DNA of 64,000 nucleotides. Origin: Allorhodopirellula solitaria. GTDB taxonomy: Bacteria; Planctomycetota; Planctomycetia; Pirellulales; Pirellulaceae. The translations under genes were made by a program, and so were the position numbers. The notes under the pieces were generated by a model. The model had not been told where the DNA came from and did not search any database. It saw nothing but the letters and a program-made list of their open reading frames with translations. This document shows, in pieces, positions 2,662 to 29,902 of this stretch; positions within the stretch are counted from its first letter, which is position 1; each line of letters begins with the position of its first letter. The stretch covers positions 186,001 to 250,000 of the forward strand of contig NZ_SJPK01000001.1 of assembly GCF_007859855.1 (NCBI RefSeq). The letters are read 5' to 3'.

Positions 2662-3187
2662 CAATCGGCCCCGCTGAAGGATTCCTGGGTCAGCGACGGA
2701 CGAGGAGCGAAAAGATTGCTTTGGCCGCCGAACCAGTCCTATGCTCTGGTCCCGTAGCCAATGGGAAAGATTCGCCGCAAGAGCAAATTGTTTTCTTCGT
2801 TTGCGGATTGGCGGCATCCTGGGACGACGCTTTTTGAGTTTTGAATCGAAATGCAAATTTAAAGACGTCGCTCATCGGCATCTCGAAACAACAATTCGCT
2901 GCCACGCGGTTGGGTGGATTGATCTTTGACTGCGGAGTTTTAAACGCCGGATACTCCACATTTCCCAGCAGATTTGCTTGTCGCCCGGTACGTCGCGTCG
3001 AATCTTGAAAACCCTCAGGATTGCGTGCCACGATCGGGAGACTCGACGCATAGAGAGTAACGAACAAGCAGCCAATCGAGATCGCCTTCGTAGCCGTTGC
3101 TCAATGGCGGGCGGCATCAACGAATGGTCAGTAAACAGTGGCGAGACATCGCCATCAGCCCCGGCAAATTGAGGATCGAACAAACTG
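2662..3187. other. Intergenic stretch between divergent genes
   Basis: This stretch separates the divergent sigma factor (minus) and glycosyltransferase (plus). It probably holds both promoters, but I cannot point to convincing -35/-10 pairs. Short open frames on both strands look like chance. Confidence 0.4.
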
Positions 3188-3826
3188 ATGAATCCAATCC
3201 ACGAAGGTTCATTCGATCAACCAGACGAAGGCATTCTGTACGTTGCAATCGGATGGCGAATGCGACGGCCGCTCGAGCGATCAATCGCGTCGGTTCGCAA
3301 ATTTTTGAACCTGCCGATTACCGTCATCACCGACCTCGATGGAATCCATCACGTCGATGTTGTCAAAAAAGTGAAGTGGAATCGAACGCCAGGGTATGCA
3401 GTTAAGCCGGCATTCATTCCGCAGCTTCCCTACGCGCGAACGATGGTTCTCGATACGGACACGATCATCCTGCGTTCCGACGCCGCAGCACCCATGCGGC
3501 TGATCACTGATCAATATGGCTATCATGCGGCTGCCGTTCAATCGCTCAATGGACGCACCGATGAGGTCCGGGTTCTGTCCTGCACGCCGAGTTGCAATTC
3601 CGGTGTGCTATTTCTGCGACGGTCCCCGCGTGTGAGAAAGGCAATGAAGCTCTGGAGGCAATATTATCCAGGAAAAGGAAGTGAAGAGGTTTTTCTGACA
3701 AGGGCACTGCTGACCGCGGCGGTTCCCACGTTTTGGCTTCCTCGCGAGTGGAATGATCGCGGACGCGGCAACCAGTCACAGCGAAAGGTTCGTATTTCGC
3801 ATCCCAAGCCGATAAAAAGTCGATGA
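3188..3826 (+). CDS. Putative nucleotide-sugar glycosyltransferase (GT-A fold)
   Basis: A protein of 212 residues that reads as a small GT-A type glycosyltransferase. It has a beta-strand and DxD motif (MVLDTDTIIL, residues 87-95) of the kind that binds a metal and the nucleotide sugar. Before it come ITVITDLDG (45-52) and a lysine-containing KPAFIPQLPYARTMVLDTD segment typical of GT8-like or capsular sugar transferases. CNSGVLFLRRS follows at about 135, where GT8 enzymes have their N-S-G motif. There is no signal peptide or membrane segment. The C-terminus is short and ends in a basic tail. The methyltransferase-like gene at 3949 follows on the same strand after 122 bases, so the pair may modify a surface glycan, though this is inference. 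The donor and acceptor sugars cannot be read from the sequence. Confidence 0.65.
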   Translation: MNPIHEGSFDQPDEGILYVAIGWRMRRPLERSIASVRKFLNLPITVITDLDGIHHVDVVKKVKWNRTPGYAVKPAFIPQLPYARTMVLDTDTIILRSDAAAPMRLITDQYGYHAAAVQSLNGRTDEVRVLSCTPSCNSGVLFLRRSPRVRKAMKLWRQYYPGKGSEEVFLTRALLTAAVPTFWLPREWNDRGRGNQSQRKVRISHPKPIKSR

Positions 3827-7180: not shown

Positions 7181-7630
7181 CGCAGCCACAATGCGAACGA
7201 GCGAGGCAACCAGCTATCGCTCGAACTGCTGCACGAAGTCGTCGCCACAAACGACAAGAAACGTTTCGCACTCAGCGACGACGGCCTACGGATTCGAGCC
7301 AGCCAAGGTCACTCGGTATCCGGTGTCGACTTGAAACTTGATGAGCAAACGCCGCCCGACACGCTCTACCACGGAACCGTCGCCTCATTCATCGAGAGTA
7401 TTCGCGCCGACGGACTTCGGAAGCGATCGCGCAACCACGTCCACCTATCCCCTGACGAAACAACTGCAACCAAAGTCGGTTCACGACGAGGCACCCCAGT
7501 TGTCCTCCGAGTCGACGCGGCGACGATGCACCAACAAGGCCACCGTTTCTTTGTTTCGGCTAATGGAGTCTGGCTGGTCGATGCTGTGCCGACGGCGTTC
7601 TTGACGTTCCCAGCCGAGAAGATCGAGTGA
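7181..7630 (+). pseudogene. kptA: RNA 2'-phosphotransferase (Tpt1/KptA), N-terminus missing
   Basis: The frame reads LLHEVVATNDKKRFALSDDG, then LRIRASQGHSV, VDLKL, LYHGT, LRKRSRNHVHLS, and RRGTPVVLRVDAATM to the end. This is the C-terminal two-thirds of KptA, the enzyme that moves a 2'-phosphate from RNA to NAD. The usual first 40 or so residues (the SKFLSYVLRH region) are absent: a stop codon lies at 7178-7180 and no ATG occurs at the right place, the first possible start being TTG at 7331. The catalytic region with H-G-T is present. It is followed after 7 bases by a decayed ADP-ribosylglycohydrolase, so the pair appears to be dying. A functional short form starting internally cannot be excluded but is unlikely because the first lobe is lost. 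Confidence 0.75.
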
Positions 7631-7637
7631 GTCACCA

Positions 7638-7948
7638 ATGAGCGGCAAGGTCATCACTGGATGCATTTTAGGAACCGCCGTTGGCGATGCGTTGGGATTG
7701 CCGTACGAAGGCGTCTCGCCGCTACGGGCACCGCCGTCCTTGGAGCCGCGATCGACGATGTGCCGAGAATGCTGGACTGGACTTCGTCCGAGCGTCACCG
7801 CGACTCACGCACACGGACCCGAAAGCCGAGTGCAAAGCAGTCGATGTCGCGTTGTCGGCAAAGCATTCGCGAGATCCTGGATGCGAACCTTTGGCGCGAT
7901 CACATTGTCGATGCGATCGGTGACGAGGGAATTGAAGTGAGGGATTGA
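7638..7948 (+). pseudogene. ADP-ribosylglycohydrolase (DraG-type) remnant
   Basis: The reading frame from 7638 starts [30 protein letters not shown], which is the N-terminus of ADP-ribosylglycohydrolases. After about 30 residues the homology breaks off. A second frame contains [20 protein letters not shown] (about 7798-7860), which matches the internal THTDP segment of the family. Large internal deletions and a frame change therefore split what should be a protein of about 300 residues into fragments. The enzyme removes ADP-ribose from proteins or RNA. Next to kptA it would suit NAD-linked RNA repair, but both genes are broken here. Confidence 0.65.
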
Positions 7949-8545
7949 TTGCAAATTGCAAATTATTCATTGCAAATTGTATATTGAGGGATGGAATCGA
8001 AACGAGTCATTCAATTTGGAGTGATCCAATGAAGCCTGACGATCTGTCCGAACGACTACTCGTGCTTGCGGTGCGTATTGGGAAAGTGGTCGATGCGTTG
8101 CCTGAAACGAGGCTTGGAAAGCACATTGCGGGACAATTGGTTCGCAGCGGAACCTCTCCAGCGCCAAATTACGAAGAGGCGTGTGCGGCAGAAAGTCGCC
8201 GTGACTTCATCCACAAGGTTCGAATCGCACTGAAAGAACTTCGCGAGACGCGATGTTGGGTCAGGCTTATCATGCGTTCGGATCTGCTTCCCGAAGCACG
8301 CATGACCGAGATCGCAAACGAGACCGACGAACTGTGCAAGATCCTCGGTCAATCCTTGGTCACCGCACGTCGAAACGAAGATCACGCCAAAGCAATCGCT
8401 CGCAAACCGTCCCCGAAATGAATATCGTCTAATTGCCAATTTGCACCGTTCAACCTACAAAAGTGTCATTGTCGCGTGTAGGCAAAAGCAACCCTGAATA
8501 ACATTGATCAATTTGAAATGTTCAATTTGCCATTTGCAATCTTCC
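7945..8545. repeat. AT-rich flanks around the four-helix-bundle gene
   Basis: Short runs of the type TTGCAAATT occur on both sides of the gene at 8029: several copies at 7946-7982 and again at 8431-8440 and 8502-8541 (CAATTTG, TTTGCAAT). They are unlike the GC-rich surroundings and could mark the edges of a small mobile unit carrying the gene. Confidence 0.45.
8029..8421 (+). CDS. Four helix bundle protein (S23/IVS type)
   Basis: A small helical protein of 130 residues. The sequence LSERLLVLAVRIGKVVDALP, GKHIAGQLVRSGTSPAPNYEE, ACAAESRRDFIHKVRIALKE, LRETRCWVRLIMRS is the pattern of the 23S rRNA intervening-sequence protein family (TIGR02436-like). Members were first seen inside 23S rRNA insertions but often stand alone, and their role is not known. 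The ATG at 8029 has GGAG eight bases upstream and the family's usual N-terminal start. The gene sits between a decayed ADP-ribosylglycohydrolase and an M28 peptidase, with AT-rich short repeats on both sides, so it may have arrived as a small insertion. Confidence 0.85.
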   Translation: MKPDDLSERLLVLAVRIGKVVDALPETRLGKHIAGQLVRSGTSPAPNYEEACAAESRRDFIHKVRIALKELRETRCWVRLIMRSDLLPEARMTEIANETDELCKILGQSLVTARRNEDHAKAIARKPSPK

Positions 8546-20601: not shown

Positions 20602-23600
20602 TCAGGCTCCCTTGGCCAACAACAAATCGAAAATCACTCGCTGGAACTTCGCGGCTAGCTCCGGATTGTTGAGGTACTGGGTCATCTGGTTCTGGTGCGC
20701 CTCGCTGCTGCTCATCACCGCGTCGTCGAGTGCTTCGGCGAAATCGCCCAGCAATGCTTGTTCGGGCGAGTTGTTGGCGATCTGATCCATGACTCGGTCG
20801 TTCTCTCGGACTTTGTCGCGGATGGTGTATGCGTAGTTGATGATGTCTTGATCCGTGAGACCGTCGGTGATGAACAATTCGTTCAGCCGAGCAATGATCT
20901 CAGAGAGCCAAAGTTCTTCCTTCGACTTCGACTTGCCCGACCCGATGTCGGTGCCAACCTGCAGGCCCTCGGCACCCTCTTTGACCAGTTGCAGGTCCTG
21001 CTGCTTGATCTTTGAGAGGCGATAGTGGGTCATGTCGACGGAGGTTAGGTCGATGGGCTCGTCGCTAGGGGCCTCTTCGCGAAGGAGGGGGGCGAGGTGG
21101 CGGGCGTACAGGTTCAGCTTTTCCAAGTCGGTGCTGTCGTAGTCGACGATTTGCGACATGAACTCGTAGTATCGAGTGAACGAGATGAGATCGGCGCGGA
21201 AGATCCCTAGCTCGTCGAGCCTCTTCTTGGCCTCCTTCATTTCGGTTTCAGCGTTCGCGATGAAAGTGGGGTCGCCGAGTTTCTTGGCGTGCCCAAACAG
21301 TTTCCGGTGTTTCTCAAAATCGGCTCTCGCTGCCTGGGATCTCGACTGCCACCGATCCACTGCCGGGCGGCACACGTTACTGATCGCGGCATTGCTCTTG
21401 CTCTTGACGAAGTAGACCTCGCTGAATTGGCAGACCTCGGTCCAAAGGAAAATGCCCGTTGCTCGTAGTTTGTTGTATAAATCCCAGATCAGATTGGGAT
21501 CAGAGACATCGAGCAGCGAGGCGGTTTCGTAGTACTCTTGAAACGCTGCGAGGACATCGGCGGGTTCGTTGTAGAAGTCGAGAACGTACGTGTCTTGTTT
21601 ACCGGGGAAGGTGCGGTTGAGACGCGATAGGGTTTGCACGCACTCCAGTCCGCCGAGTTTCTTGTCGACGTACATGGCACAGAGTTTGGGTTGATCGAAA
21701 CCGGTTTGGAACTTCTTGGCGACGATCATCACGTGGTACTCGCCAGTATCGAATGCCTTGCGGAGATCGCGCCCCTTCAAGTCCGGGTTCATGCTGCCCT
21801 CGGTGAACTTCTCGCCGAGCAGTCCTGCCGCGTTGGGATCATCAGTGTGGAACTCGACTTCGCCTGAGAACGCGACCAGTGCCGCCAAGTGGCTGTACTT
21901 CTTCTTTTTGATGTACTTATCGAACTCGACCTTGTACCTCACCGCTTCCTTTCGTGAGCCCGTGACGACCATCGCTTTGGCGTGCCCGTTGAGCAGCCCC
22001 ATCACGGTTTGCCGGTAGTGCTCGACGATCGCCTTGACCTTCTGCGCGATGTTATGATCGTGCAGGCGGACCCATTGGCCGAGTCGAACTTTGGCTTTCT
22101 TGGCGTCGACCTCGTAGTCGGGCTTGGCAACTTTCTGCGCCAGGTTATAGGCGACCTTGTAACTGGTGTAGTTCTTCAGCACGTCCAGGATATAGCCCTC
22201 CTCGATCGCCTGTCGCATGCTGTAGACGTGGAACGCCTTGGGCTTGTTTCGCTTCGACGGCGGTTCGTCTGGTTTGGGAAGGCGACCGAATAACTCCAGC
22301 GTCTTGCTCTTGGGGGTCGCCGTGAATGCGTAGTAGCTGAGGTTGGCCGAACCCTTGCGAGCTTCCACACTGGCGATCACGGCATCTTCGCAGGTGATCT
22401 CGACGTCTTCATCCGACGCCTCGGTCATCAGCACTTCCTTCAGCTTGCCCGCCGTGCGGCCAGACTGCGAGCTGTGGGCTTCGTCGGCGATGATGGCGTA
22501 GTTCCGCTCTTTCAGGCTGACGCTGTTCTCGATCGCCTTGAGCACGTGAGGGAATGTCTGAATCGTCACGATCACGATGGGCTGACTACTCTCCAGAGCA
22601 GCTGCCAGCTTCTCAGACTTGCTGCCTTGTCCCTCTTGTCGGTTGATCCGACCGACAACGCCGTCGGCATGTTCAAACTGATAGATCGTATCCTGCAGCT
22701 GATCGTCTAGTACCGTGCGATCGGTGACGACGATCACGCTGTGGAAAACCTTCTCGCCAGCGTCATCGTAAAGTGACGACAACTGGTGCGCCGTCCACGC
22801 GATGCTGTTGGACTTGCCGCTGCCGGCACTGTGCTGGACCAAGTACTTGTGACCGGGACCTTCGTCGTGGCTGGAGCGGATCAGGCGGCGGACAAGATCC
22901 CACTGGTGATAGCGAGGGAAGATCAGCTTTTCTTTCTTCGACTTCCGACCGTCCCATGCTTCCTCGGTGTCGATTTCCAGGTGGATGAACCTGCCAATGA
23001 TCTGTAGCAGGTTTTCCGGTGCCAGCACTTCGTTCCACAAATAGCCGGTGGCGTACGCGTCAACGTCCTCGGGCGTGTCATTGCCTGAGCCACCCTCCTT
23101 GGTCCCCTTGTTGAATGGCAGGAACGTGGTTGCGTCACCCTGCAGCCGCGTCGTCATGGCGGCTTCGTACTGGCTGACGGCAAAGTGGACCAACGCACCG
23201 CGTTTGAATGTCAGCAGCGGTTCGGGCTTGTTCGTTTCCGGATCTTTGGGAAGTCGGGTTTTGCGGTACTGTTTCTTGGCATTCTCGATCGCCTGCTTGA
23301 ACTCACTCTTCAGCTCCATCGTGGCCACGGGAATGCCGTTGACGAACAGCGTCAAATCGATTCGCCACTTTTTGGCTTGTTTAGCGTCATCATGGTAACC
23401 CGACGCGTGAGCGAGGGACTTGTGACCGTCATCATGGTAACCCGACGCATGAGCGAGGGACTCGTGACCGTCATCATCGCAACCCGACGCGTGAGCGAGG
23501 GGCTCGTCGGTGGATACCCCGTCGGCTGGTTCTATCCCTCGCTTACGCATCGGGTTACCATTGCTAGCTGTCCACGGGCTGTAAACCAGCTCGGGAACGA

Positions 23601-24003
23601 CTCTCAGAATATTGCCCTCGTACATGGCGAGCGTATCGGGGTTCAGTCCGTGCTCCGGTTTGAACTGGCACATCTTGAACGAAGCCGATTTGTCACGCAG
23701 TTCGTGCCTCAGCACACCGAGGGTGCCGTAGGTGCGAAGCGATTTATCGCTGGCATGCGGATCGGCTTTGGAGAGCTGAGCAGCGAGCTTGTCGATGAAG
23801 GCCTGCTCGGCACCGCTGGGGTACAATTGCTCGTACTTCTCCCAGGCCTTGGACTGGGTCGACTTGACGTACTCCAGGCAATCCTCGATGTAGAGAGCCA
23901 GCTTGCGATCGTACTTTGCCGGGTCTCCGAGTTTCCAACCGCCCGACACCATCTGGTCAATGATGTCCTGCTGGAAAGCGGCTTCTTTGGCGTCAGCGTT
24001 CAT
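20602..24003 (-). CDS. hsdR: Type I restriction enzyme, R subunit HsdR
   Basis: A protein of 1133 residues. After an N-terminal part comes the nuclease core, where WRIDLTLFVNG (D216) and VATMELK (E230, K232) form the PD-(D/E)xK site. Walker A is VQHSAGSGKSNSIAW, the DEAH motif is AIIADEAHSSQ, and the motif VI region is FQTGFDQPKLCAMYVDKKLG with SRLNRTFPGK. The C-terminus is helical. The ATG at 24003 is preferred over 24051 because MNADAKEAAF is the natural start. Residues about 149-205 (NPMRKRG, then three SLAHASG-type units) are an in-frame insertion made of palindromic repeats, just before the nuclease core. It is the last gene of the operon hsdM-hsdS-RAYT-hsdR. Whether the insertion affects activity is not known. 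Confidence 0.9.
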   Translation of the reverse strand: MNADAKEAAFQQDIIDQMVSGGWKLGDPAKYDRKLALYIEDCLEYVKSTQSKAWEKYEQLYPSGAEQAFIDKLAAQLSKADPHASDKSLRTYGTLGVLRHELRDKSASFKMCQFKPEHGLNPDTLAMYEGNILRVVPELVYSPWTASNGNPMRKRGIEPADGVSTDEPLAHASGCDDDGHESLAHASGYHDDGHKSLAHASGYHDDAKQAKKWRIDLTLFVNGIPVATMELKSEFKQAIENAKKQYRKTRLPKDPETNKPEPLLTFKRGALVHFAVSQYEAAMTTRLQGDATTFLPFNKGTKEGGSGNDTPEDVDAYATGYLWNEVLAPENLLQIIGRFIHLEIDTEEAWDGRKSKKEKLIFPRYHQWDLVRRLIRSSHDEGPGHKYLVQHSAGSGKSNSIAWTAHQLSSLYDDAGEKVFHSVIVVTDRTVLDDQLQDTIYQFEHADGVVGRINRQEGQGSKSEKLAAALESSQPIVIVTIQTFPHVLKAIENSVSLKERNYAIIADEAHSSQSGRTAGKLKEVLMTEASDEDVEITCEDAVIASVEARKGSANLSYYAFTATPKSKTLELFGRLPKPDEPPSKRNKPKAFHVYSMRQAIEEGYILDVLKNYTSYKVAYNLAQKVAKPDYEVDAKKAKVRLGQWVRLHDHNIAQKVKAIVEHYRQTVMGLLNGHAKAMVVTGSRKEAVRYKVEFDKYIKKKKYSHLAALVAFSGEVEFHTDDPNAAGLLGEKFTEGSMNPDLKGRDLRKAFDTGEYHVMIVAKKFQTGFDQPKLCAMYVDKKLGGLECVQTLSRLNRTFPGKQDTYVLDFYNEPADVLAAFQEYYETASLLDVSDPNLIWDLYNKLRATGIFLWTEVCQFSEVYFVKSKSNAAISNVCRPAVDRWQSRSQAARADFEKHRKLFGHAKKLGDPTFIANAETEMKEAKKRLDELGIFRADLISFTRYYEFMSQIVDYDSTDLEKLNLYARHLAPLLREEAPSDEPIDLTSVDMTHYRLSKIKQQDLQLVKEGAEGLQVGTDIGSGKSKSKEELWLSEIIARLNELFITDGLTDQDIINYAYTIRDKVRENDRVMDQIANNSPEQALLGDFAEALDDAVMSSSEAHQNQMTQYLNNPELAAKFQRVIFDLLLAKGA
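23394..23561. repeat. REP-like palindromes inserted in hsdR
   Basis: Three direct copies of the motif that starts GGTAACCCGACGCGTGAGCG lie at 23394-23416, 23436-23458 (GCATGAG variant) and 23479-23500 (GCAACCC variant), followed by one inverted copy at 23537-23560. Spacing between direct copies is about 42 bases. They are in frame with hsdR and give SLAHASGY-type peptides, and NPMRKRG for the inverted one. Confidence 0.92.
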
Positions 24004-24463
24004 TCCGCTCTTCGGTTGGTTAGGGTGGTGCGTGGGGCGGCTGACAGCCAATGGCTAATCTTTCGCCGGGTTTTGCAATTCACTTGACGTTGATCGTCCG
24101 ATGACCGATACTCAGGTTGACCCTGTCGCTCTCGAAGGCTCAAGTTCCACTTGGGGCACGCCGCAAGGCATAGTGAGTACGGGGTTTTTTTCTGCGCCGA
24201 TCGTGCTCATGGTTTCGTCCGGGTCATGTCGCGTCCATGGTAACCCGCAGCGTGAGCAAGGATTCCCATGTAAGCAGGACGGCAAAAATTATTTCCGCAG
24301 AATGAATCGCAATGCTTTCTGGTAACCCGACGCGTCAGCGAGGATTCACGCCGAGTTCCTCGCTCACGCGTCGGGTTACCATCAGATGTTCCGCAGAATA
24401 AATTGGCCATACCTGCTTAACCCGCAGCGTGAGCAAGGATTCCCAGACGAGTCTGTTCCTCGC
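24004..24463. repeat. REP/BIME cluster between hsdR and the RAYT-like gene
   Basis: This noncoding stretch holds a variant unit at 24239-24261 (GGTAACCCGCAGCGTGAGCA), a perfect inverted pair at 24321-24343 and 24358-24380, a further variant at 24418-24440, and an inverted copy at about 24460-24482 that reaches the end of the RAYT-like gene. The inverted pair can fold into a hairpin with a loop of 14 bases. No other gene is present. Confidence 0.85.
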
Positions 24464-24940
24464 TTACGCGTCGGGCTCCCAGTCTTGTCCATCGAGTGTG
24501 TAGCAGACGACTTGGCTGAGCCCTTCGTTGTCAAACACCCAGCGAATGCTACCACGATCAGCCCACCAATTCTCCGTGGCTTGTGGCATCGAGTTCTCTT
24601 TCAGACGACGCGTACACCACGCTTTCAAATCGCCTCTCACTTTCTTCGGTGGAGTCTCAAACGCACCGATGACCGCATGCATGTGGTTTGTCCGACAATT
24701 GACGGCGTGACAAACCCACTTGCGATGGACGCACGTTTCGCGGACCTGAGACTCGACAATTTGACGTTGGTCATCATGGAGGATTTTTGCGTCTTCCGTC
24801 ATTTTCGCTGCGGCTTCAAGTTCCCGCACAGGATCCGGCAATTGCCAACCTTTGTGATATTCGACCCAACCACGTTGATCCCCTGGAAGCCAAGTCCCGT
24901 AGGTTGCTACGGTGATAAAGAACGCAATCGGACTATCCAT
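24464..24940 (-). CDS. RAYT-like HUH protein (REP-associated transposase family)
   Basis: A protein of 158 residues that reads as a member of the IS200/TnpA_REP-like (Y1) family. It starts with PIAFFITVATYGTWLPGDQR, a pattern I associate with planctomycete RAYT relatives. The HUH motif is NCRTNHMHAVIGAF (H-M-H). The region where the catalytic tyrosine should stand reads DLKAWCTRRLKENS, with no Tyr at the usual place. It ends in VVCYTLDGQDWEPDA. The ATG at 24940 was chosen; a TTG lies one codon upstream. It sits between hsdS and hsdR on the same strand, with REP-like palindromes on both sides (24239-24482 and 24955-25092), the typical gene-plus-REP arrangement. It may copy or spread those repeats, or be a domesticated relative. 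Confidence 0.75.
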   Translation of the reverse strand: MDSPIAFFITVATYGTWLPGDQRGWVEYHKGWQLPDPVRELEAAAKMTEDAKILHDDQRQIVESQVRETCVHRKWVCHAVNCRTNHMHAVIGAFETPPKKVRGDLKAWCTRRLKENSMPQATENWWADRGSIRWVFDNEGLSQVVCYTLDGQDWEPDA

Positions 24941-24954
24941 CAACCATTTCCCCT

Positions 24955-25092
24955 GGTACCTCGACGCGTAAGCGAGGCGGGCTTCATGGTAACCCGACGC
25001 GTGAGCGAGGCGGCCTTCATGGTAACCCGACGCGTGAGCGAGGCGGGCATGGGATCGATGTCGGTAGATCCTCGCTGACGCGTCGGGTTACC
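24955..25092. repeat. REP/BIME cluster between the RAYT-like gene and hsdS
   Basis: Units at 24955-24977 (variant with GGTACCTCGACGCGTAAGCG), 24989-25011 and 25020-25042 are in direct order. An inverted unit at 25070-25092 closes the cluster. The spacing of the last two direct units is 31 bases. Together with 24239-24482, this brackets the RAYT-like gene. Confidence 0.9.
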
Positions 25093-25100
25093 ATTAGCGT

Positions 25101-26495
25101 TCATGCGACCTCCGGTTTAGTTGCTTGTATCGGGTCGGTTGAAGGCGGCTGCCAATCTCGCACGTCGATCTTGCCGGTGACAGCTGCGGAGATGAGGGCG
25201 GTACGGCGTTCATTCAGAAGTGCCAATTGATCGCATACGCTATTGATAACGTCATCGATCCCTGTGGTTCTTTTTGCCAGGTCAAGCAAGATCGCTGTCT
25301 GTTCCTTCAACGGTGGAACCGCCAGCAGCAAGTTTCCAACAACAGCAGAATTTAGTCCCGGCAGAATCGCGCCGCGCCGATTCAAGTCGATCTGCACCGA
25401 AACGTAGTGTGCATCGTGCATGAGCTTCGCGAGAAACTTCGGGTCGAGCTTCCCGGAATGAGTTCTGATGCGAATTGTATCTGAGTCTATGATTCCTTCC
25501 GGCACATCCTTCGGAACAACTCGACAATTTCCTAAGCTCCCTTTTCGTGTCAAAACGATGTCGTCCGGCACAAGCTTGTAGTGTGCTAGCCCACGGAAGA
25601 TCGCCGCTGGCAACCAACGCGATACATTTATGAAATTGCCCGATATCGTGTTCGCTTGTCCATACACACAGTAAGCTGCGGGTTCGCGCAAAACATTAAC
25701 CAGCGATGTTCCAAACGGCCCCATCTGTATTCCGCCATCACGGACATTGTGTTTTAGTCGGCACACCTCCCAATGCTCCGGCACTTCCCCCAGCCACTCG
25801 ACCCCGGAATCTCGCATGGGGGCGTCGGGGTTCAAGCCTTTGGTGACCGCATGACTGATGACGGCCTGACGTTTCTCCCCGAGCAACGCGATGAGCTGCT
25901 GCTGCTTCTCAATCAACGCATCAATCTTCGCCGTCTCGTAGTCCAGAAACGCAAGTATCTGTTTTTGTTCACATTCCGGTGGAACGGCGACTTCAATTTT
26001 CTTGAAGTCATCCCAGTAAAGTCGCAATCGAAAGTCTGTGATTCCGCGCGAGAAGCGTTTCAGTTCAGTGACTGCAGTCGGCGTTCGCAATAGCAGCTCG
26101 AAAAACCGAGATGGAAGCGACGTTCTCGGCTTGCAGACAACGTATGCAGGGCTGATCAAGCCGTTGACCTGTGCTGCTCCAAAACCACCTTGCCATGCAC
26201 GCATCATGTTGTACGCGAGATCGTTTTCCTCAACGACTTTGTAGAGAGAACGATCATCGCTTCGCGTGATTTTGCGATCCAGTTCTTCTTCATTCATCTC
26301 CTTGTCGGAAATCCCATCATGGATGGATACACTGAGAATTGGATAGCCAAGCTCAGTGCGTGTTGAGGCTCTTCGCGAACTCTCGCGAAAGAGTCGTCCA
26401 AGATGTTGAATCTCCCAGTGGCCTGGCGTCATCTCGGCCCACTCGACACTCGACGAAATCATGTTGGCGTAGTGCTGCTGCAAAACGGCGTTCAC
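25101..26495 (-). CDS. hsdS: Type I restriction-modification specificity subunit HsdS
   Basis: A protein of 464 residues with two target recognition domains and two conserved helical spacers. TRD1 begins near residue 22 ([18 protein letters not shown]) and ends with [43 protein letters not shown]2 begins with [20 protein letters not shown] and ends with [20 protein letters not shown] and [20 protein letters not shown]. Each half would read one half of a bipartite DNA site, which cannot be predicted from sequence alone. The start overlaps the hsdM stop by 4 bases. Unlike hsdM and hsdR, it carries no repeat insertion that I can see. Confidence 0.92.
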
Positions 26496-28957
26496 GAGTG
26501 TACCTCTTGCAACATCTGCATGATCTCTCCACTCAGTTCATCCAACTCGGCGTCGATCTCCTGCAATGGCCGTGGTGGTTCGTACTCGTAGAAGTGACGG
26601 TTGAAGGGGATCTCGTACCCGACGATGCCGACTTGCCCGTCCTTCGAGTCGCACTTGCCCGCGTCGATCCAGGCGTCGGGGACGTGCGGGGCAACCTCCC
26701 CGAGAAAGTACGTTTCATTGACAGCGTCGACATTGGCTCCGCGAGCGGTCTCAGCGGTGAGGGGGACGTCTTCGCTGTCTCGCAAATCGCTGTCGGGCTG
26801 GAGCTGAACGATTTGGCCTCCGTACTCGAACGTGCCGTAGGTTGGATTGGCTTGGTAACCCGACGCGTGAGCGAGGCTGGTTTCGGGTGTAGACCCTCGC
26901 TTACGCGTCGGGTTTCCAAGTACCTTCTTGATGACCGGCTCGGCGTCGGGGTTGGTCCAGCTGACGGCCGCGATGATTTGTTTCTTCTGCTTCGCATCGA
27001 GCGTGACTTCGGCGGTCTTGATCGCTTCTTTCAGCGTGGTCTCGAACTCATTGAAGTCGTCGTGCTGCTCGGTTCCGATAGCCGCCTGCAGATGGGTGGC
27101 GATGTCGAGCAGCTGTTTTTGGTTGGTCCAAGTTTTGACGGCTAGCAAGTCTTTGATCTGCTTCTCTTTTAGGTCGGCGAAGTCAGCTTTGACCATCGCT
27201 CGAACCTCCGTTTCGACTTCCGTCAGGTTGCCGTATGACTTGCCGGACAGCCCCTCACCCCCAGCCCCTCTCCCCGAAACGGGGCGAGGGGAGCCAGAAT
27301 CGGAGAAGGATTCAGGGAACTGTTCGTAGACCTTCTGCATGGCCGCGTTGAGTTTGCCGGGCTGGAAACGAAGTGTTTCGATTCGCTCGTCGGAGAACTG
27401 GACCGATAGCCGCAGTGGTCGCTCGATCGTGATCCGGCGATAGCCAAACTCGTGGCTGGCAAAGATCTTGCTGCCGAAGGTTTTCTTCGCGGCTTTCTTT
27501 TTCGATCCTCGCTGACGCTTCGGGTTACCATTCTCGTCGGGTTCCTTGTCGAGACGGTAGCTCTCGATCGCTTCAAAGCCGCCAAAGGCTCGCGTGATCA
27601 ACCGGACGTCATCCTCGCCGATTTCCTGCCGCTTACTGCCGAGGCTCTTGCGCATCTTTTGATAGAGATGGACAGCGTTGATCAGTTGGACCTTGCCCCT
27701 GCGTTGCTGCTCTTTCTTGTTGGACAGAATCCAGATGTAGGTTGCGATGCCGGTGTTGTAAAACATGTCCGTGGGGAGCGCGACGATGGCTTCGAGCAGA
27801 TCGCTCTCCAGGATATACCGCCGGATCTCGCTTTCACCGCTGCCTGCTCCGCCGGTGAACAAGGGCGACCCGTTGAGGATGATGCCGATCCGGCCGCCGT
27901 TGTTTTGTGTTCCTCGCTTACGGGTCGGGTTCCCATCGTAGTCCCGCATCTTGCTGATCAGGTGCATCAGGAACAGTAGCGACCCATCGCTGACTCGGGG
28001 CAGCCCCGGCCCGAATCGCCCGTCAAACCCCTTCAGCGTGTGCTCGTCTTTGACGGTGCCCTCGACCTTCTTCCAATCCACGCCGAATGGCGGATTGGAT
28101 AGCATGTAATCAAAATTCTCCGCATACAGCTGGTCGTCATTGAGCGTATTGCCCAGCTTGATACGGCTGACGTCCTGGCCCTTGATCAGCATGTCGCCTT
28201 TGCAGATGGCGTAGCTTTCGGGGTTCAATTCCTGGCCAAAGGCACGCATCACGGCTGCCGGGTTCAATTCGTGGACGTATTCCATCCCGCTGGACAGAAA
28301 CCCCCCCGTTCCCGCTGTGGGGTCGTAGATGGTGCGAATGATGCCGGAGTCGGTCAGGGCGTCGTCGTCTTCCATGAAGACCAGCGAGGTGGTCAAGCGG
28401 ACGATGTCACGCGGCGTAAAGTGCTCCCCAGCGGTTTCGTTGCTGGATTCGGCAAATCGCCGGATGAGTTCCTCGAAGACTAGCCCCATGTCGTGGTTGC
28501 TGATCGCAGCGGGGCTGAGGTCGGTCAGGGCGACTTTCTGCACGACCTTGTACAGCAAATTGGCGTCCTGGAGTTGGCCGACGAACTCGGCGAACTTGAA
28601 GTGCTCGAAGATCTCGCGGGCGTCAGGGGAGAAACTGTCGATGTACGAGAGCAGGTTCGACTTGATGTCCGCACTGCCCATTTTCGACAGATCCATTGCG
28701 GAGGTATTGTAGAACGACTGCTTGGCCGCTTTTCGTAGGAACTTGTCGCGGGCTTCGGATTCCAGGCCCGTCATCGCCTCCAGCTTCTCGACCTGCTCCA
28801 GCACCTTGGGTTTGCTTCTCTGCAGCACGCACTCCAGTCGCCGCAGGAGCGTGAACGGGAGGATGACGCGGCCGTACTGGGATTGCTTGAAATCACCGCG
28901 AAGCAGATCGGCAAGTGACCAGATATAGGCCGCTGTCTGAGAGAAATTGCTCGTCAT
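26492..28957 (-). CDS. hsdM: Type I DNA methyltransferase subunit HsdM with repeat insertions
   Basis: A protein of 821 residues, long for HsdM. The N-terminal helical part (HsdM_N) precedes the adenine methyltransferase domain: motif I is DPTAGTGGF (212-220) and motif IV is NPPF (288-291). I chose the ATG at 28957 ([13 protein letters not shown]) because the upstream reading to 29170 only translates palindromic repeats. At least four in-frame insertions are visible: NPTRKRG at 27912-27934, NPKRQRG at 27507-27529, [14 protein letters not shown] at 27251-27293 (a different palindrome), and NPTRKRG with SLAHASGY at 26854-26917. All lie outside motifs I and IV. It leads the operon with hsdS, RAYT and hsdR. 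The unit should methylate adenine in the host site. Confidence 0.9.
26854..26917. repeat. REP-like inverted pair in hsdM
   Basis: A direct unit (26854-26876) and an inverted unit (26894-26917) are separated by 17 bases and can form a hairpin. On the coding strand they read NPTRKRG then SLAHASGY. Confidence 0.92.
27251..27293. repeat. Second palindrome family in hsdM
   Basis: CCCCTCTCCCCGAAACGGGG and its flanks form a GC-rich palindrome unlike the GGTAACCC family. It is in frame with hsdM and encodes [14 protein letters not shown]. Similar CCCTCACCCC-type repeats are widespread in bacteria (recollection). Confidence 0.8.
27507..27529. repeat. Single REP-like unit in hsdM
   Basis: A lone inverted-orientation unit with GCTTCG instead of GCGTCG encodes NPKRQRG on the hsdM strand. 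Confidence 0.85.
27912..27934. repeat. Single REP-like unit in hsdM
   Basis: A lone inverted-orientation unit with GGGTCG and GGTTCCC changes encodes NPTRKRG on the hsdM strand, between MRDYDG and TQNNGG. Confidence 0.85.
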
Positions 28958-29071
28958 GAAACATCTTGTTTCGGTGTTGGTAAGAAGATTGGCCCGGGTC
29001 GAACTGGACGACTCGTAGAGTATACGTGTCAGAACGAAGCGCATGTATAAGAGAAGAACGCAGCGGCACTC

Positions 29072-29550
29072 GAGACTGCGGAGCAGGTTTGGCAACCCGC
29101 CGCGTGAGCGAGGACCATCCGCTCGCCACGCAAAAGCTGCTTCTTCCTCGCTGACGCAGCGGGTTACCAATCGAGCGATGCGGCGAACGAGATACCGGTC
29201 GCGTTAGCCCTGCCGACTCCAATGAGAAAAGGACAGCGATACCCGAGCCTGCGGAGTAGGCTTGGTAACCCGACGCGTGAGCGAGGACCATCCGCTCGCC
29301 ACGCAAAAGCTGCTTCTTCCTCGCTGACGCAGCGGGTTACCAATCGAGCGATGCGGCGAACGAGATACCGGTCGCGTTAGCCCTGCCGACCCCAATGAGA
29401 AAAGGACAGCGATACCCGAGCCTGCGGAGTAGGCTTGGTAACCCGACGCGTGAGCGAGGATCATCCGCGCGCGACGCAAAGCACTGCTTCTTCCTCGCTG
29501 ACGCAGCGGGTTACCAATCGAGCGATGCCCCGAACGAGATACCCGCCGCG
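29072..29550. repeat. Tandem array of about 173-base units, each with a REP-like pair
   Basis: Three head-to-tail units begin near 29072, 29245 and 29418. The copies of CAATCGAGCGATG at 29168, 29341 and 29515 fix the period at 173-174 bases. Each unit has a direct palindrome (variant with GCCGCGTGAG in the first) and an inverted one with GCTGACGCAGCGGG. The third unit is diverged. The array fills the gap between hsdM and the tRNA genes. Confidence 0.92.
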
Positions 29551-29588
29551 TTATCGGTGCCAATTCCGAGCATCCAGAGCGATTCAGC

Positions 29589-29629: not shown

Positions 29630-29635
29630 GTGGAG

Positions 29636-29708
29636 TGCCCCCGCTAGGGCTCGAACCTAGGACCCACGGATTAAGAGTCCGTTGCTCTACCAACTGAGCT
29701 ACAAGGGC
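29636..29708 (-). tRNA. tRNA-Lys (anticodon CTT)
   Basis: The 73-base cloverleaf folds: acceptor GCCCTTG pairs with CGGGGGC (with G-U pairs), the anticodon stem ACGGA/TCCGT holds the loop CTCTTAA with anticodon CTT, and the T-arm reads GGTTCGAGCCC. The discriminator is A. CCA is not encoded. It is next to the island end, a position often used for integration. Confidence 0.95.
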
Positions 29709-29829
29709 GGCGGGCGACGGATCGTCGCCTCGTTTTGCTGGGCAAGAGCCTGGAGGGTTCTTGCGGTCAGCGAGATTTCATTGTGTGTCGACTGGATTGT
29801 TTGGTCAATCCGAGACAACAGCAAAAAAG

Positions 29830-29902
29830 AGGCGACGGTCGGATTCGAACCGACGAATAAAGGATTTGCAATCCTTCGCCTTAGCCACTTGGCCACGTCG
29901 CC
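29830..29902 (-). tRNA. tRNA-Cys (anticodon GCA)
   Basis: The 73-base cloverleaf has acceptor GGCGACG with CGTCGCC, the anticodon stem AAGGA/TCCTT with loop TTGCAAA (anticodon GCA), a T-arm reading GTCGGTTCGAATCCGAC and the U73 discriminator usual for Cys. It lies 121 bases upstream of tRNA-Lys on the same strand, so the two may be cotranscribed. Confidence 0.95.

Follow-up and report, generated by a model that had tools for sequence, protein, structure and literature searches.

The REPIN/RAYT system of Pseudomonas reportedly consists of dispersed, inverted pairs of REP units held at a fixed spacing, together with a transposase gene. According to the main text of Di Nocera et al. (2013, PMC3733652), the GTAG/CGTC REPs and their REPtrons are mostly intergenic, with some copies in ORFs, where clusters encode 43-82 amino acids; the list of intragenic cases given there stresses genes for DNA synthesis and repair, and the word "restriction" is absent from that main text. 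Planctomycetes carry the class 3 TnpA_Y1 transposases, described by Quentin et al. (2018, PMC6006769) as REPtron-like, with a Y----Q motif, NHVH in the table, flanking hairpins with a 5' CnGA foot, and high copy number; the terms "intragenic", "in frame", and "coding region" do not occur in the main text of that paper. Finally, the Rickettsia palindromic elements, of ~150 bp, are inserted in frame in many unrelated genes, as outlined in a review (PMC10969869). In-frame REPs have already been published, and what looks new in the locus described here is their concentration in restriction-modification (R-M) genes; no description of R-M genes as REP hosts was found in the titles and abstract openings of the open-licence papers listed.

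The locus lies in the draft genome of Allorhodopirellula solitaria (6.8 Mb, 62 contigs), in a stretch of 64,000 nucleotides that was analysed as a whole and is called the window below (G000:C1:186001-250000). A type I R-M operon is read on its minus strand in the order hsdM-hsdS-HUH-hsdR (Table 1). In and around these genes, 23 units of a palindromic repeat of GGTAACCCGACGCGTGAGCGAGG type, here called REP1, are found, all within 23394-29515 (head included). A scan with the 19-nt REP1 core at ≤3 mismatches yields zero further units in the rest of the 64-kb window and none inside hsdS, and mononucleotide shuffles of the sequence (n=20) yield 0.1 units on average. Tandem duplication, with periods of 42 and 173 nt, also raises the density of units in this locus. 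The 173-nt array is situated near the genes for tRNA-Lys (29635-29708) and tRNA-Cys (29829-29902).

Table 1. The hsd operon, its HUH gene, and the palindromic repeats in and around them (positions in the window).
Feature	Position	Strand	Remarks
hsdR, type I restriction subunit, 1133 aa	20602..24003	-	Pfam HSDR_N, SWI2_SNF2, ResIII, T1R_D3-like
193-nt stretch in hsdR, residues ~147-203, four REP1 units	23383..23575	-	counterpart in G213 is 34 nt
REP1 unit in hsdR	23394..23416	+	gene strand reads SLAHASGY
REP1 unit in hsdR, tandem copy (period 42)	23436..23458	+	SLAHASGY
REP1 unit in hsdR, tandem copy (period 42)	23478..23500	+	PLAHASGC
REP1 unit in hsdR	23537..23559	-	GNPMRKRG
Five REP1-type units downstream of HUH gene	24239..24480		24239+, 24321+, 24358-, 24416+, 24458-
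Y1 HUH transposase (predicted), 159 aa, candidate REP1 mobiliser	24464..24943	-	motifs NHMH, YxxxxQ
Four REP1 units upstream of HUH gene	24955..25092		24955+, 24988+, 25021+, 25070-
hsdS, specificity subunit, 464 aa	25101..26495	-	Pfam Methylase_S
hsdM, type I N6-adenine methyltransferase, 821 aa	26492..28957	-	Pfam N6_Mtase, HsdM_N
Inverted REP1 pair in hsdM, residues ~682-700	26854..26917
Second palindrome family, P2, in hsdM	27251..27272	-	9 genome places, ≤3 mismatches
REP1 unit in hsdM, residue ~478	27507..27529	-	GNPKRQRG; G213 also with unit at site
REP1 unit in hsdM, residue ~343	27912..27934	-	GNPTRKRG
Three tandem copies of ~173 nt, REP1 inverted pair in each	29051..29567		between hsdM and tRNA-Lys

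REP1 is a REP/REPIN family made up mostly of inverted pairs. Its foot, CCGA, is followed by the hairpin CGC-GTGA-GCG, which is weak alone (-3.2 kcal/mol), and in 34 aligned pairs the conserved ends are GGTAACCC and GCGAGG, giving GTAA rather than GTAG. Outside the window, 37 of 56 clusters are +- pairs. The spacing of pairs elsewhere in the genome is 52 nt in 34 of 37 cases, and the pairs in hsdR and hsdM, spaced 55 and 37 nt, depart from this standard form. As in the GTAG/CGTC REPs, as far as their published description goes, small palindromes in inverted pairs lie mostly between genes, occur in some ORFs, and flank a transposase gene in the manner of a REPtron; the GTAG or CGTC tag at one end is, however, absent from REP1. 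The dispersed inverted pairs, their fixed spacing, and the presence of a transposase gene likewise recall the REPIN/RAYT system, from which REP1 differs in its class 3-like transposase, in having no GTAG tag, and in its in-frame copies beside the transposase gene.

Eight REP1 units lie within genes, four in hsdR and four in hsdM, and all eight are in frame, which confirms the count of at least eight made in a sequence-only reading of this DNA. In hsdR, three units run opposite to the gene and one in its direction; in hsdM, one is opposite and three run with the gene. All units in gene direction translate as GNP(T/M/K)R(K/Q)RG (4/4) and all opposite units as LAHASG(Y/C) (4/4), such that the eight are confined to two reading phases, and the NPTRKRG and SLAHASGY peptides of that reading are borne out, variants included. 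It had also held that a single one of the six frames of the unit is closed by a stop: five frames are indeed open, and the sixth contains TGA in addition to the TAA that was named. The description of the two genes as essential holds for restriction-modification itself and in no wider sense. A 42-nt tandem repeat accounts for three of the units in hsdR, so that the eight intragenic units represent about four insertion events, one in hsdR and three in hsdM; this number is too small to establish a frame preference.

The 159-aa ORF between hsdS and hsdR possesses the HUH motif, the catalytic tyrosine, and the predicted fold of a Y1 HUH transposase. In an alignment of 24 HUH sequences, 13 columns are invariant, among them N86, H87, H89, and Y148; Q153, with four residues between it and Y148, is conserved in at least 90% of the sequences. 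The start, of the form MD(S/D)PIAF, is conserved too. Pfam returns Y1_Tnp at E 0.0014 only, which is below the curated cut-off, and nothing above it. The AF2 model (pLDDT 85.7) is matched by Foldseek to the ISDra2 and IS608 transposases and to the RAYT-REP hairpin complex 4er8, with E values of 5.6e-05 (2xma) and 1.0e-04 (4er8). The ORF is thus a predicted Y1 HUH transposase that fits the description of class 3 in its Y----Q motif, its NHMH (NHVH in PMC6006769), its flanking units, their CCGA foot, and the 108 copies in the genome, an assignment made by features described for the class. Named records that carry relatives of the protein are three environmental MAGs, labelled Pirellulaceae, Pirellula staleyi, and Granulosicoccaceae.

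The REP1-type unit at 24458 runs across the 3' end of the HUH gene and provides its stop codon. Among loci with an HUH protein at least 51% identical to this one, all 14 (own locus included) have at least one unit nearby at ≤4 mismatches, versus 3 of 19 loci in which identity is ≤48%; L012 and L013, which belong to the same HUH clade, have only one unit nearby each. Likewise, REP1 copies are more numerous in genomes with the REP1-associated HUH clade, with a median of 68 (n=11) versus 4 and 0.5 (n=17 and 32; p=3e-5, kinship ignored). The 159-aa protein is likely the mobiliser of REP1. Three genomes, G020, G037, and G058, hold 301, 72, and 69 REP1-like units, respectively, yet no HUH relative was found in these assemblies, which may be incomplete; their mobiliser may be lost, unassembled, or different.

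Dense clusters of units also surround the HUH gene in relatives, for example 28 units in 3.5 kb in G010 and 18 in G002, and no hsd genes were found within ~8 kb of it in either genome. Because such clusters occur without hsd genes nearby, the local build-up of units can be assigned to the REPtron, and landing in genes is a trait of this operon; in 12 loci around other HUH genes, none of 33 clusters lies inside a gene. In L033, the HUH gene is positioned between hsdS and a DUF3800 gene that precedes hsdR, and in G001 it adjoins remnants of hsdM and hsdR. The gene has accordingly kept its place by this operon in three genomes without being tied to it: the HUH gene of L034 (82% identical) has unrelated neighbours within the 5.9-kb extent of that locus.

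It is fairly probable that REP1 is moved, mostly over short distances, by the class 3-like HUH transposase of the same operon, and that selection keeps the frame-preserving inserts that fall in tolerant loops of the R-M proteins. Structural relatives of the HUH protein cut and join single-stranded units, and by analogy this protein would do the same with single-stranded REP units, placing them mostly nearby if the clustering alone is taken as a guide. Insertions that shift the frame or strike the folded core would be lost by selection, and a few in-frame copies in linkers of hsdR and hsdM would survive, as accessory genes may tolerate longer linkers. The NPTRKRG- and SLAHASGY-type peptides are most likely without function. 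In the window locus, four of seven clusters are inside genes, versus one of 56 outside it (Fisher p=3e-4, for a locus chosen for this very feature).

A less expected finding is that in-frame palindromes from several unrelated families recur in HsdM genes. Besides REP1, the hsdM gene of the window contains a unit of a second family, P2; neither this unit, nor the recurrence of palindromes in other HsdM genes, nor the HUH gene between hsdS and hsdR had figured in the sequence-only reading. Of the nine places of P2 (GAGAGGGGCTGGGGGTGAGGGG) in its own genome (≤3 mismatches), three are intragenic; each of these is in frame and falls in a different gene that Pfam identifies as HsdM, namely that of the window and those at C2:3401-5080 (P2 at C2:3809) and C2:296853-298562 (P2 at C2:298091) (L256 and L257). 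Three more places are located 0.5-1.3 kb from another HsdR gene. Both C2 genes hold P2 at one loop (WFL...LFIDAR), which in other genomes is occupied by P2 (in G107), by two inverted units of another family, P4 (in G331), or by a unit of yet another, P5 (in G023 and G192). The HsdM of L033 carries P2 and P5 together, and P5 is read in different frames, as GERQGASRRSG in L270 and as VSGKALAAGSS in L033. No associated HUH gene was identified for P2, P4, or P5 in HsdM.

Because P4 and P5 were found by inspecting HsdM loops, their copies in HsdM are not independent support. With the discovery sites left out, none of 23 further P4 sites in G331 is inside a gene (loci for 26 of 33 places); for P5 in G023, where loci were at hand for 13 of 105 places, one of nine sites is inside a gene, a 657-aa ORF, and three more are at an edge, and in G192 none of four is inside a gene and one is at an edge. 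P2 is a fairer test of a preference for HsdM, and beyond the window copy both of its intragenic copies (2/2) are in HsdM. In two other HsdM genes of the own genome, at C13 and at C2:708 kb, units of REP1 and P2 are absent, as are long hairpins.

Side observations on these genes and families may be recorded here. In the HsdM of L257 (a 570-aa call), a third palindrome of ~77 nt with 25-nt arms follows from codon ~218, in frame and in the same gene as P2. In L033, a MAG, the HsdM carries a GIY-YIG catalytic domain in frame at ~3033-3235 (PF01541, E 1.1e-9, residues 765-831). A further palindrome family, GTGGACGAGGCGACGAGTCC (≤3 mismatches), is common in the own genome, with 62 places in 1.24 Mb, for example C1:192020 and C3:33759, and five of the 62 are inside predicted genes.

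A second explanation is possible though less than probable: the inserts may have been gained in earlier hosts and carried along by horizontally moving hsd operons, in which case they would record past REP systems and not the present activity of the HUH gene. G213 (7.8 Mb), a genome of the same family and another genus, has a single P4 match (≤3 mismatches), in frame within HsdM, versus 33 in G331, and this match fits R-M genes that carry remains from hosts with other REP systems. The positions of P2, with a third of its nine places in HsdM genes and another third close to an HsdR gene, point the same way, but the occurrence of P2 at the same loop of two HsdM genes could be due to gene conversion. 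REP1, moreover, has an HUH gene and more than 100 copies in its own genome and thus needs no foreign source. Local movement by the HUH transposase followed by selection against disruptive inserts is preferred for REP1. Applied to R-M genes as they move among hosts that differ in their REP families, this filter would also account for the recurrent in-frame palindromes of unrelated families in HsdM genes.

It is unlikely that the inserts are themselves selected, as longer charged loops in HsdM and HsdR that alter assembly, regulation, or sensitivity to anti-restriction proteins. Such a role would account for an enrichment in R-M genes that exceeds chance. Across 1.24 Mb surveyed in the own genome, eight of 817 predicted genes carry a unit of REP1, P2, P4, P5, or P6, and four of these eight are type I R-M subunits, of which the survey holds seven (p=1.3e-7); with the window genes left out, the figures are two of six unit-bearing genes and five of 815 (p=4.5e-4). 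The other four unit-bearing genes are ORFs of 967, 508, and 861 aa, the last probably with its start called too early, and one of ~53 codons; partial REP1-like pieces inside other genes, of 18 nt at C3:369465 and 15 nt at C2:374672, are below the cut and uncounted. The two reading phases shared by all eight units of hsdR and hsdM would also agree with selection, but about four events are too few for a frame preference, and the families, the frames of P5, and the loops all differ. A survey of hairpins gave 0.210 per kb over 62 kb of HsdM, 0.225 per kb over 89 kb of HsdR, and 0.121 per kb over 165 kb of control sequence (110 genes); these rates were set aside and only the few longest arms were used, as the controls all belong to a single genome and the R-M genes to many.

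Homologues free of the inserts are, furthermore, common. G213 has an hsd operon whose HsdR and HsdM are ~84-88% identical to those of the window over the matched parts. Against its hsdR orthologue (L096), the 193-nt stretch has a net excess of 159 nt, or 53 codons; the sequence-only reading had put the gain at ~57 residues. At this site L033 resembles G213, and the loop is shorter still in all 14 further HsdR homologues that cover it (three others are without coverage). In hsdM, the sequences at ~343 and ~682-700 are different in G213 and L033, and the unit at ~478 is common to the window and G213. The inserts are thus missing or replaced in homologues, as had been supposed, except at ~478, where the insertion is probably older because G213 carries a unit there too.

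Two of the hsdM sites, at ~343 and ~478, are consistent with tolerant loops. About ten residues separate the end of the hsdR insert from the strand RIDLTLF; at a very weak score, this strand aligns with the nuclease strand of a type I HsdR of solved structure. The hsdM insert at 343 appears as a gap against the solved HsdM 7vru. AlphaFold models HsdM with a mean pLDDT of 64; residues 344-351 and 477-490 have pLDDT <50 within a confident core, and the tail at 678-803 has low pLDDT throughout, the third site (~682-700) included.

A Rickettsia-type element, adapted to in-frame life in protein genes generally, is very unlikely. The likeness is that palindromic repeats are read as peptides inside proteins (PMC10969869, PMC3733652); the differences, as far as these accounts go, are that REP1 consists of 23-nt units or pairs and that within coding sequence it is nearly confined to R-M genes. 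The openness of five of the six frames, the eight in-frame units in two genes, and a pair read in the same phases in one further ORF would suit such an element. The count over the genome does not. REP1 has 55 forward and 53 reverse matches at ≤2 mismatches (108 in all; reversed control 2), and 53 stretches cover the outside-window places among the matches listed (100 of 108, window included). Of the 56 clusters in these stretches, 54 are intergenic, one is at a gene edge, and one is inside a gene according to our own gene caller, by which 73% of the sequence is called coding; the one intragenic cluster is in the weakly scoring 967-aa ORF, which has no Pfam match and supplies the pair just mentioned. 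Likewise, among the first 30 matching loci of each of three relatives, clusters inside genes number 0/18 in G010, 0/30 in G029, and 0/31 in G002 (0/79 together).

The gene caller, built for this analysis, was a periodic Markov model of order 3 that had been trained on 391 kb of the own genome and was applied unchanged to G002, G010, G029, G331, G023, G192, and G213. It skipped hsdS, recognised no more than part of the HUH gene, and sets some starts too far upstream, for example at C3:33685, where the true start probably lies downstream of the repeat pair. Since some real genes escape the caller, a model-free check was added: open frames of ≥900 nt span five of the 56 clusters, versus 182 of 280 random positions, and frames of ≥600 nt span nine, versus 211 of 280. 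At most about five to nine of the 56 clusters outside the locus would therefore be inside genes. On the genome-wide count and the open-frame check, a general in-frame element of the Rickettsia kind was rejected for this genome. The sequence-only reading had drawn the Rickettsia parallel in principle and called the sequence a different one: the difference stands, and the parallel extends to in-frame presence in hsdR and hsdM (8/8 where intragenic in the window) and not to many unrelated genes (1/56), units being rarely intragenic in this genome and in the samples from three relatives.

An artefact of assembly or annotation, or decay of the hsd genes into pseudogenes, is scarcely credible, having in its favour the draft state of the assembly alone, and against it full-length open genes with coding signal, which in hsdR runs across the 193-nt insert, a dN well below dS, and in-frame palindromes in the HsdM of G213, L033, G107, and G331; both pseudogenes and sequencing error were rejected on these grounds. 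Against G213, dN and dS are 0.094 and 1.74 for hsdR and 0.115 and 1.10 for hsdM, and dN is also well below dS for the HUH gene; because of this, all three look like working genes, judged by their sequences.

Known intragenic REPs are scattered over many kinds of gene, and here the transposase, the repeats, and the decorated genes share one operon, with independent repeat families in the same kind of gene, HsdM, across several genomes. It is tempting, and at present rather speculative, to suggest that the type I R-M systems of Planctomycetes are a preferred coding home of palindromic mobile DNA, in which HsdM loops would take up at least four unrelated REP families, one HUH gene would have become a lasting fourth hsd gene (here, in L033, and beside the remnants in G001), and R-M enzymes would grow REP loops that record their former hosts. 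If this is true, in-frame palindromes could be used to trace R-M operons from host to host and would put loop growth in large enzymes to a natural test, and the locus would offer a compact system for asking whether the little-studied class 3 HUH transposases move repeats locally. A last observation concerns L154 (G001:C14), where, at 7368-8460, an HUH gene without internal stop is flanked by short hsdM and hsdR remnants; here the R-M operon has decayed and the transposase gene has been kept.
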